A stretch of DNA of 64,000 nt, taken from Methylosinus sp. H3A. Lineage in GTDB: Bacteria; Pseudomonadota; Alphaproteobacteria; Rhizobiales; Beijerinckiaceae. Positions 20,315 to 23,466 of the stretch are shown piece by piece; position 1 is the first letter of the stretch, and the number at the start of each line of letters is the position of its first letter. A program made the position numbers and the translations under genes. Where the stretch lies: contig NZ_JADNQW010000005.1 of the NCBI RefSeq assembly GCF_015709455.1, forward strand, positions 2,968,501 through 3,032,500, given 5' to 3'. The notes beneath the pieces are model-generated. The model was not told where the DNA came from and searched no databases. It saw nothing but the letters and a program-made list of their open reading frames with translations.

Positions 20315-21241
20315 ATGACCGCGCCAGACAGATTTTCTCCCGCCCGCTCGTTCCAGGGCCTCATTCTGACGCTGCAAAATTTCTGGGCGGCGCAAGGGTG
20401 CGTCATTTTGCAGCCCTACGATATGGAGATGGGCGCCGGCACGTTTCACCCCGCCACCACGCTGCGGGCGCTGGGCCCGCGGCCCTGGAAGGCCGCCTAT
20501 GTGCAGCCGAGCCGGCGTCCCAAGGACGGCCGTTATGGCGAAAACCCCAATCGCCTCCAGCACTTCTATCAGTATCAGGTGATACTGAAGCCCTCGCCGC
20601 CGGATTTGCAGTCGCTCTATCTCGCCTCGCTCGAGGCGATCGGCGTCGACGCCAAGCTCCATGACATCCGCTTCGTCGAGGACGATTGGGAGAGCCCGAC
20701 TCTCGGCGCCTGGGGGCTCGGCTGGGAGTGCTGGTGCGACGGCATGGAGATCTCGCAATTCACCTATTTTCAGCAGGTGGCCGGCTTCGATTGCGCGCCT
20801 GTCGCGGGCGAGCTGACCTATGGCCTCGAGCGCCTCGCCTGCTATCTGCAGGGCGTCGATTCGATCATGGAGCTGAATTTCAACGGTGGCGAGGAGGACA
20901 AGGTCACCTATGGAGACGTCTTCCGGCAGGCCGAGCAGGAATATTCACGGCATAATTTCGAGGCCGCCGATACGGAAAAGCTGTTCTCCGATTTCCGCGC
21001 CGCCGAGGCCGAATGCCGCGCTCTGCTCGCCTTCGGCGACAAGGGCGAGGGCGAGCGGCATCTGATGGCGCTGCCGGCCTATGATCAATGCATCAAGGCC
21101 AGCCACGCCTTCAATCTGCTGGATGCGCGCGGCGTGATCTCGGTCACCGAGCGGCAGAGCTATATTCTGCGCGTGCGTGAATTGGCGCGGGCTTGCGGCG
21201 CCGCCTGGCTGCGCACCGAGGGCGGCTCGGCCGCAGCATAG
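20315..21241 (+). CDS. glyQ: glycine--tRNA ligase alpha subunit
   Basis: A ~308-residue subunit of the alpha2beta2 glycyl-tRNA synthetase; it forms the glycine and ATP site. [50 protein letters not shown] and WEVWCDG-like [18 protein letters not shown] are characteristic. I start at the ATG at 20315 (MTAPDRF), which has GGGGA eight bases upstream; an ATG two codons earlier is possible. The beta subunit gene glyS, usually directly downstream, is absent: the next gene is an unrelated small SOS-type gene. glyS must therefore lie elsewhere. Confidence 0.96.
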
Positions 21242-21260: not shown

Positions 21261-21295
21261 TTGACAAACGTTCTTTTTATGTTCTAAGTTTGTTC
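21261..21295 (+). promoter_or_regulatory. SOS promoter with two overlapping LexA boxes
   Basis: Three GTTC half-sites lie at 21270-21273, 21281-21284 and 21292-21295, each pair separated by exactly seven bases. This gives two perfect overlapping GTTC-N7-GTTC boxes, the LexA operator of Alphaproteobacteria. TTGACA at 21261-21266 and TAAGTT at 21285-21290 (18-base spacing) form a plausible promoter that LexA would cover. The first possible start codon of the small gene downstream is 35-45 bases away. I found no other such box in the window. Confidence 0.82.
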
Positions 21296-21330
21296 TTGTC
21301 TTTCTTCGAGTCCATTCCGTGAGGGTCGTC

Positions 21331-21726
21331 ATGTTCGTGGTCGATCGGGTCGAGCGCCGGGACGGGAGACCGGCGGAGAATTCCATCATTCGCGGCCGGG
21401 AATTGGCGGCGCTGGATCAAACCTCGCTTCGCGAGCGTTTCTACTCCTGGCGCGCCGCCGACGGCGAACGCTATGTCTGCACGATCTTTTCGGCCGAGGA
21501 GGAGGCGCTGGTGGCGGGTTTCGCGCGCGCCGTCGTCATCGGCGTCGCGTGCGACGGCGGCCAGCGCCGTCCGGTCTGCGTGCTCGCTTCGGAGGATTTC
21601 TACACGAAGAGCGGGCGTCTCGCGCGTGTCGCCGCCGGCGCTCTGGGGGTGAACGAATGGCATGTGCGCTTCTGCGCGCTGCCGGGCGCGCTCGCGCGCC
21701 GTCTCGCCAAAGCCTTGCTGAACTGA
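21331..21726 (+). CDS. predicted SOS-regulated small protein of unknown function
   Basis: A ~131-residue soluble protein I cannot assign to a named family. The start at 21331 has GAGGG five bases upstream; a GTG at 21319 would add four residues. Visible features are SLRERFYSWRAADGERYVCTIF in the first half, a hydrophobic core AVVIGVACDGG, and FYTKSGRLARVAAGALGVNEWHVRFCAL towards the end. There is no signal peptide or membrane segment. The promoter holds two overlapping LexA boxes, so it is predicted to be induced by DNA damage. It could be a regulator or inhibitor acting in the SOS response, such as the small cell-division inhibitors of Caulobacter, but nothing in the sequence proves a role. 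Confidence 0.75.
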   Translation: MFVVDRVERRDGRPAENSIIRGRELAALDQTSLRERFYSWRAADGERYVCTIFSAEEEALVAGFARAVVIGVACDGGQRRPVCVLASEDFYTKSGRLARVAAGALGVNEWHVRFCALPGALARRLAKALLN

Positions 21727-21732
21727 TGTGTC

Positions 21733-22906
21733 ATACGGGTTCCGGCTGATTGACTCGGCGACGGGGATTCCCGGGGCGAATCGAAGTAGCTAAGCTGTAT
21801 CGCCATGAATCGCTGGAGGCGGGTCATGGCGACGATAGCTGCGCATTTGAGCGTCGATGCGTTGCGTGAACGGTATGTTTCGAGTTCGAACGCGCGCGAG
21901 GCGCGGCATTTCCATGCGATCTGGCTGCTCGCCAAGGGCCACACGCTCGGCGAAGTCGCCGAGATGACGTCCTTTGCCCAGCGCTGGATCGAGCAACTCG
22001 CGGCGCGCTACAACGCAGAAGGACCGGAGTCTCTCGGCGACTTGCGCCGGCGCAACGGCTCGACGGCGACGGTGTTGAAGCCCGATCTGCTCGCCGAGCT
22101 GCGCGTTCGGCTGAACGAGCCCCCCGACGACGGAGGCTTGTGGACGAGCGCGAAAGTCGCGGCTTTTCTCGCGCGCGAATTGGGGCTGGAGAAAGTTGCG
22201 GTTCAGCGCGGCTGGGAAGCGCTGAAAGCCTGCGGCATGTCGATCCAGGCTCCACGCCCCAAAAATCCGAAGGTGGCTTCGCCCGAGGAGGCGGCGGCGT
22301 TCAAAAAAACCTCGAAGACGCCGTCGCGGAGGAAGCCGCGAAGCATCCAGAGCGATCGGTCGAGGTCTTCGCCAGCGACGAGCACAGGCTCGGCCTGAAA
22401 CCGGTCACGCGGCGCGTCTGGGCGCCCGTCGGCGAGCGGCCGATCGCGCATGGCCATCATCGCTTCGACTGGCTCTATGTGACCGCCTTCGTCTCGCCGG
22501 CGAGCGGCGAGACCTTCTGGTACGTGCACGACGGCGTCTCGAAGCCGTTTTTCGCGGCGCTGCTCGAGACCTTCGCGCGCGAAGCCAAGGCCGGCGTCGA
22601 TCGCACGATCGTGCTCGTCATCGACAACGCCGGCTGGCACGGCGAGGCTGGTCTGAGCGTGCCGGATGGCGTGCGACTGGTTTTTCTGCCGCCCTATACG
22701 CCGGAGCTGCAACCCGCCGAGACCTTATGGGCTCTCGTCGACGAGCCGATCGTCAACAAGCACATCGGAACGATAGAGGAACTCGACGCGATCATCGGCG
22801 AAAGATGCGCCGCGCTCGCGAGCGAGCGCGACATCATCAAAAGCCGCGCCGGCTTCCATTGGTGGCCAAAAATCGCCAAGCCGAAGTAATCAGCCGGAAA
22901 CCGTAT
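21733..22906 (+). mobile_element. IS630-family insertion sequence
   Basis: Terminal inverted repeats of 19 bases match at 18 positions: ATACGGGTTCCGGCTGATT at 21733-21751 and the reverse complement of AATCAGCCGGAAACCGTAT at 22888-22906. The outermost TA pairs (21734-21735 and 22904-22905) are consistent with the TA target duplication typical of IS630 elements. The element sits between the stop of the SOS gene and the stop of the converging chaC-like gene; the chaC TGA begins one base outside the right TA. Neither flanking gene seems truncated. Length is about 1.17 kb, normal for the family. Confidence 0.9.
21826..22889 (+). CDS. IS630-family transposase, two frames joined by a -1 shift
   Basis: The upstream frame codes for a helix-turn-helix DNA-binding part (AKGHTLGEVAEMTSFAQRWIEQLAARY; LWTSAKVAAFLARELG) and would end at 22398. 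The downstream frame, -1 relative to it, codes for the DDE catalytic part: D in FASDEHRLGLKP, D in LVIDNAGWH, E in TPELQPAETLW. The frames meet at a run of seven A's at 22303-22309, a plausible site for programmed ribosomal or transcriptional slippage, as known for several IS630 relatives. I start at ATG 21826, which has GGAGG six bases upstream. It may be an active element rather than a damaged one, because no other defect is seen. Confidence 0.88.
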
Positions 22907-23466
22907 CAGGCGCGCTCGGCGGCGAGTGTGGCCGTCGGAGCGGAGAGCCGGCGCACGATCTCGGCGAGGGCCGGGTCGTGAATGTCGAGCTGCTGGAGAT
23001 GTTCATGCGTGTTGCGGACATAGGAGGGATTGTCGCCCGAGGCGCCGACGCCCCCCTCCACGAGCCGCGTCATCTCGTCGATCGACAGGCGTCCGGCATA
23101 TTGCTCATGGGCGCGGTCGACGATGAAAGCGAGCGCGCGGGCCGAGCCGCCCTCGGCGAAGCGCAAACCGACGTTTCGCTCGACATAGACCGAGGTCACC
23201 AATTCGCGGGCGCGAAGATAGGCGATCGTCTCCTCGCGCGCCGCCGCGGCGACGCGAAAGGCGACCCCGAGACAAGAGCCGCCATAGTCGAGGCCGAGCA
23301 CTAGGCCCGGACGCTCCCGCGTTCCGCGGTGGACATGGGAGAAGACGCAGAGAGAGCGGTGATAGCCATGCACCCAGGCGAGGGCGCTTTCGTGAAATTC
23401 GAAGCCCGGTCGCCACATCAACGAACCATAGCCGAACACCCAGAAATCGCCGTCCATCGTCGCCAT
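22906..23466 (-). CDS. chaC: ChaC-type gamma-glutamylcyclotransferase
   Basis: A 186-residue enzyme of the ChaC branch, which degrades glutathione to 5-oxoproline and cysteinyl-glycine in the cytoplasm. The substrate-binding FGYGSLMWRPGF motif is at residues ~11-22, and the catalytic-glutamate region can be sought in the ARELVTSVYVERNVGLRF stretch. ALAFIVDR and IDEMTRLVEGGVGASGDNPSYVRNTHEHL follow the family closely. Its stop codon abuts the right end of the IS630 element, but the C terminus appears intact. It could affect glutathione turnover, which is relevant to thiol-dependent formaldehyde metabolism if the host is a methylotroph. Confidence 0.92.
   Translation of the reverse strand: MATMDGDFWVFGYGSLMWRPGFEFHESALAWVHGYHRSLCVFSHVHRGTRERPGLVLGLDYGGSCLGVAFRVAAAAREETIAYLRARELVTSVYVERNVGLRFAEGGSARALAFIVDRAHEQYAGRLSIDEMTRLVEGGVGASGDNPSYVRNTHEHLQQLDIHDPALAEIVRRLSAPTATLAAERA

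Follow-up and report, generated by a model that had tools for sequence, protein, structure and literature searches.

A gene at positions 21331..21726 (forward strand) of a 64-kb stretch of Methylosinus sp. H3A DNA, hereafter the window, probably encodes a catalytically dead GIY-YIG protein that is repressed by LexA as part of the SOS regulon of Hyphomicrobiales, as judged from comparative sequence analysis. The 131-residue product belongs to an uncharacterised family whose genes mostly carry a LexA box, and its assignment draws on the open reading frame (ORF), its homologues, a profile link to intact GIY-YIG proteins and a structure predicted for one family member. Within the genus, nine of the ten genomes, counting that of the window, possess the gene. 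ATG 21331 is the best start, because the GAGG of a probable ribosome-binding site (GAGGG, 21321..21325, forward strand), 5 nt before that ATG, is kept in 9/9 same-genus copies.

Directly upstream, GTTC half-sites at 21270, 21281 and 21292 read as GTTC-N7-GTTC-N7-GTTC (21270-21295), a triple site 35 bp upstream of the ORF. Pattern scanning resolves it into two overlapping forward-strand LexA boxes, GTTCTTTTTATGTTC at 21270..21284 (box 1, kept in 9/9 same-genus copies) and GTTCTAAGTTTGTTC at 21281..21295 (box 2), with the middle GTTC common to both. A promoter read from the sequence (21261..21290, forward strand) consists of TTGACA at 21261-21266, an 18-bp spacer and TAAGTT at 21285-21290; given this spacing, box 1 lies between the -35 and -10 elements and box 2 covers the -10. 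This is the arrangement described in an earlier note on this DNA, namely three GTTC elements with seven-base spacing forming two overlapping boxes across TTGACA-N18-TAAGTT, and the window holds a single triple site, versus 0.01 expected from 100 dinucleotide shuffles. The simple GTTC-N7-GTTC pair is less striking, with five in the window versus 1.3 expected and 2 of 100 shuffles reaching five. Genome-wide, the triple pattern occurs twice; the second copy (GTTCAAGGGCGGTTCCTATACGGTTC) is at another place and has no A/T-rich spacers. A generic sigma-70 scan did not call the promoter at 21261-21290, and TAAGTT matches TATAAT at 3/6 positions; TTGACA is kept in 7/9 same-genus copies and TTGAC in 9/9, window copy included. 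All nine copies also carry the triple site, their promoters otherwise aligning only in part, and no other genus was seen to have the overlapping triple site. Its half-sites match the alphaproteobacterial LexA motif as given in parts of PMC3323433 and PMC12700426, and the lexA and recA promoters of the same organism carry GAAC-N7-GAAC.

An order-wide search found a homologue in 175 of 297 sampled Hyphomicrobiales genomes, and a class-level search found matches in 7 of 289, four of them outside the order; with only 13-14 candidates scored per genome (14 at class level), absences in either search carry little weight. Given so few class-level matches, the family seems to be essentially restricted to Hyphomicrobiales. 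From the 175 homologue-bearing genomes we hand-picked 60 to spread families and scanned either strand up to 400 bp before the match. GTTC-N7-GTTC preceded the homologue in 42 of the 60, against an expectation of 0.018 per locus derived from the rest of the same loci, and 23 of the 33 sampled families held at least one boxed genome. A count of 76 of the 77 named loci, one being too near a contig end, gave 32 with a box and 44 without (L066, L070-L111, L114), many of the latter titled Hyphomicrobium, Hyphomicrobiaceae or Filomicrobium. The earlier note had proposed examining orthologues for this motif; of 156 distinct loci, 90 have a box no more than 300 bp from the start and 66 do not. This set, with gene starts and neighbour labels assigned mechanically, includes the intact GIY-YIG relative L115 and leaves out L067 (no ORF match), 24 loci with identical last 90 residues and three with less than 250 bp upstream.

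At the same loci, the box was found upstream of chaC in 0/93 cases, plsC in 0/50, tyrC in 0/32 and hisC in 0/7 (together 0/182), of glyQ in 0/6, of nrdJ in 3/17 and of other genes in 8/127. Taking the majority letter at each position of 94 forward boxes gives GTTCTATTTTTGTTC. The motif stands at main lexA genes in 11/11 genomes and at recA in 5/11; one of those 11 genomes has a second lexA-like gene, which lacks it. The recurrence of the box before relatives, together with its absence before chaC, plsC, tyrC and hisC, supports the SOS control by LexA that the earlier note had put forward, and we consider the gene very likely to be a LexA-controlled member of the Hyphomicrobiales regulon. The alphaproteobacterial SOS genes parE, tag, comM, dnaE and splB, named in section 8 of PMC3323433, share the GTTC-N7-GTTC operator, but none belongs to the window family. 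The text of that section, its regulon figure apart, makes no mention of the family, and our literature searches returned no paper recognised as being about the gene.

At 64-148 bp ahead of the start, boxless copies often carry another conserved element, GAGCCAYAWTTC, with gGCTnnAAA frequently following. It was found in 28 of the 66 boxless versus 4 of the 90 boxed loci (background 0.005), the boxless ones being L013, L037, L046, L071-L108 (in part), L197 and L218. Its strict form occurs at most once per genome in five genomes; three of the five have it, and there it stands at the gene of the LexA-boxed family.

A Pfam search with the 131-residue protein gave no match and an NCBIfam search nothing beyond one match at E 0.21, in agreement with the earlier note's statement that no domain is recognised. 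Its further statement that there is no membrane segment also holds, as the best 19-residue Kyte-Doolittle mean is 1.57 and no clear segment was found; in a predicted model this most hydrophobic stretch covers a helix end plus a strand. The gene is likewise uncharacterised, as had been claimed, with 'hypothetical protein' as the only name shown for the 120 homologues listed out of 447; homologues include P0014 (Methylosinus sp., 84%) and P0007 (Methylocystaceae, 59%). The ratio of nonsynonymous to synonymous substitution rates (dN/dS) is 0.06-0.29 among the six nearest species, distant pairs being higher and near saturation, and the low values among the nearest species indicate a kept chromosomal gene.

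The ancestry of the family emerged from locus L115 of Ensifer adhaerens, which combines the family's W-x-G-x-S-G hairpin and E-x-H-x-H strand with a full GIY-YIG motif. We aligned 30 intact proteins of this type, L115 included (alignment A4), among them S. meliloti SM11_chr0245 (UniRef: GIY-YIG domain-containing) and Rhizobium entries named 'GIY-YIG nuclease family protein'; the alignment of the window family (A3) has no rows in common with it. Comparison of A3 with A4 by hhalign returned 99.9% probability (E 1.8e-31, 111 columns), and 25 sequences from the window's genus and its nearest homologues still matched A4 at 94.8% (E 5.2e-8, 87 columns), versus 0.5-1.0% for reversed-alignment controls. 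A4 matched GIY-YIG domains from relatives' genomes (29 rows, drawn from UvrC and from small GIY-YIG proteins, with one of them extracted out of frame) at 85.8% (E 5.3e-6; reversed, 0.4%). A3 compared directly with this 29-row set gave no signal, which is what one would expect had the motif residues been lost. With 13-14 candidates scored per genome here too, the A4 profile matched 144 of the 297 genomes, many of them by eye (uncounted) at the A3 places, and found no match in the window's own genome. A predicted model of one family member appears to have a GIY-YIG-type fold. Taken from alignment and profiles, with the fold suggested by that model, descent of the protein from a GIY-YIG domain whose active site has since died is a reading in which we have high confidence.

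Loss of the active site was counted on alignment A5, comprising 130 sequences of our choosing (22 intact proteins and 108 family members), at the five catalytic positions Y, Y, R, E and N. All five are present in 21 of the 22 intact members and four in the remaining one, versus none in 28, one in 37, two in 43 and three or more in none of the 108 family members. The window protein keeps 0/5, with V, C, K, A and a gap at these positions. Dead and intact groups both conserve the W-G-SG hairpin, the E-x-H-x-H strand and a D-L pair in the last helix, and the window protein is altered at some of these shared residues. Its N-terminal W-x-G-x-S-G hairpin (FYSWRAADGERYVCTIFS, residues 37-54, 21439..21492, forward strand), placed by the model and by L115 columns W24, G26, S28 and G29, has A for G26 and D for S28. 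The two strands that carry GIY and YIG in intact relatives correspond, by alignment and model, to residues 67-86 (21529..21588, forward strand), where both motif tyrosines are replaced (V, C). The alignment equates EWHVRF, residues 109-114 (21655..21672, forward strand), with the E-x-H-x-H strand, its second histidine being arginine here.

In a tree of 106 rows and 142 columns, rooted on five intact outliers that we chose and retaining 78 of the 108 dead rows after thinning, dead proteins nest inside intact ones with two changes, one of which is the main clade of 76 (Shimodaira-Hasegawa-like approximate likelihood ratio test 94). Many forks are open, and the starred branches force only one change. 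The f18 group, represented in the tree by L176 and L178, is perhaps a second, independent loss of the catalytic residues. L176 (the same gene as L266), L178, L267 and L270, all of family code f18, also lie behind a LexA-type box.

Intact small relatives with the W-G-SG hairpin occur on mobile DNA (L115, L307, L309-L312), in settings that include IMG/VR contigs, a conjugative plasmid of Bradyrhizobium and an Ensifer region where the neighbouring gene resembles a phage primase/helicase. Near L115 and L309 stand genes that belong to phage families of primase/helicase-like and replication-initiation type, and the intact relatives L115 and L259 have a LexA box. Stand-alone 'GIY-YIG nuclease family' proteins of Rhizobium, Sinorhizobium and Bradyrhizobium (SM11_chr0245, WP_231146028.1) resemble the window family in length, architecture and the W-x-G-x-S-G and E-x-H-x-H motifs, but they keep Y, Y, R, E and N and some reside on mobile DNA, whereas the window family is dead and chromosomal with recurring neighbours. 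Relative to the GIY-YIG superfamily at large (UvrC, Cho, I-TevI, Slx1; PF01541), the family is homologous by profile via these intact small relatives and appears to share the fold in the family-member model; in contrast, the window protein lacks all five catalytic residues, has the extra N-terminal hairpin and carries no further repair domain. E. coli has an SOS-induced UvrC homologue, Cho, which like the window protein is a GIY-YIG-domain protein under LexA control; Cho actively incises DNA, but the window protein lacks an active site.

We weighed whether the protein might still be an enzyme, with the E-x-H-x-H strand and the last-helix aspartate forming a new metal or catalytic site in place of the GIY-YIG one. 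E94, H96, H98 and D113 (L115 numbering), which are not GIY-YIG catalytic residues, are kept in 101, 99, 100 and 101 of the 108 members, respectively. However, intact nucleases retain H96, H98 and D113 in 22/22 and E94 in 18/22, so these residues may be structural, and the window protein itself has R at H98 and A at D113; we regard a replacement site as unlikely. We give a similarly low probability to domestication as an immunity factor, in which the chromosomal dead copy would pair or compete with mobile active GIY-YIG relatives induced by the same damage. The mobile settings of intact relatives (the conjugative plasmid, the phage-family genes near L115 and L309, the IMG/VR contigs), the boxes at L115 and L259 and the nesting of the dead clade inside intact ones would all suit this idea, but co-occurrence is not enriched: for six sampled genomes that carry a separate intact copy (G030, G146, G153, G191, G199, G244), the dead one is present in four, versus 175/297 overall.

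The earlier note had instead inferred from the doubled operator that the product is toxic. A toxic SOS effector, such as a division inhibitor or toxin restrained by overlapping boxes, would account for the triple site in the window's genus, yet other lineages have one box or none, the protein lacks a clear membrane segment, and its nuclease ancestry comes with catalytic residues gone. Because the triple site was observed in one genus alone and many relatives (66/156 loci boxless) nonetheless keep the gene, the toxicity inference is unsupported, and we regard such an effector as very improbable. Of the functions that had been guessed, nuclease modulator is consistent with a nuclease relative lacking catalytic residues, and nothing points to a polymerase partner or, with no clear membrane segment found, to a division inhibitor; SidA-type membrane division inhibitors have a transmembrane segment, of which the window protein shows no clear sign. 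Least probable of all, if by little, is a gene outside the SOS regulon, its GTTC repeats being part of the promoter or serving some other regulator. Many boxless copies do have a different conserved upstream element, but exact GTTC-N7-GTTC in 23/33 families, promoters of neighbours mostly without the motif and its presence at lexA in 11/11 genomes all argue otherwise.

In the window, the gene follows glyQ (20315..21241, forward strand; PF02091, E 8.7e-140), and all 8/8 loci with the gene after glyQ have the box. Across the 156 loci, the upstream gene is plsC in 57, nrdJ in 58 and glyQ in eight; the nrdJ-like ribonucleotide reductase gene (e.g. at L017, L086 and L105) is itself occasionally boxed within 300 bp, as counted above. 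A convergent chaC often faces the gene, with tyrC and hisC coming next in many loci, and this frequent downstream neighbour in the order is represented in the window by a ChaC-like gene at 22906..23466 on the reverse strand (PF04752, E 2e-41). Representatives of the neighbour clusters matched ChaC, ribonucleotide reductase, acyltransferase, prephenate dehydrogenase, DUF218, class I/II aminotransferase and DUF2125 in Pfam, with an FtsX match below the cut-off; the exact gene names go beyond these family matches and are our assignments. Between the gene and chaC, two ORFs in overlapping frames (HTH_33 and DDE_3, 21805-22889) form what we take to be an inserted IS630-type transposase, and chaC is directly next to the gene in same-genus loci L003, L004 and L007-L009.

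Overall, we favor a LexA-repressed, catalytically dead GIY-YIG protein. In an undamaged cell, the position of the sites suggests that LexA would occupy GTTC-N7-GTTC between and over the -35 and -10 elements and block RNA polymerase. RecA drives LexA cleavage after damage, which would open this promoter. The product would be a small stand-alone protein consisting of the W-G-SG hairpin and a GIY-YIG-type domain minus its catalytic residues. Since those residues are lost, it most likely works without cutting; it may bind the target of its ancestor, whether a DNA structure or a protein partner, shield it or recruit to it, and so modulate repair nucleases, although we predict this role of non-cutting binder or modulator only tentatively. 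More speculative still is a history in which a mobile-element GIY-YIG nuclease was captured early by Hyphomicrobiales, lost catalysis, kept LexA control and became chromosomally fixed, the resulting pseudonuclease occupying branched or damaged DNA, or nucleases, to mark where not to cut. More than half of the genomes sampled from a large order thus hold an unnamed gene without a recognised domain, with a damage operator in 23 of 33 sampled families. If our reading is true, the SOS response would gain a new kind of component, a conserved pseudonuclease controlled by damage, raising the question of what role in DNA repair a nuclease relative that is unable to cut may play.
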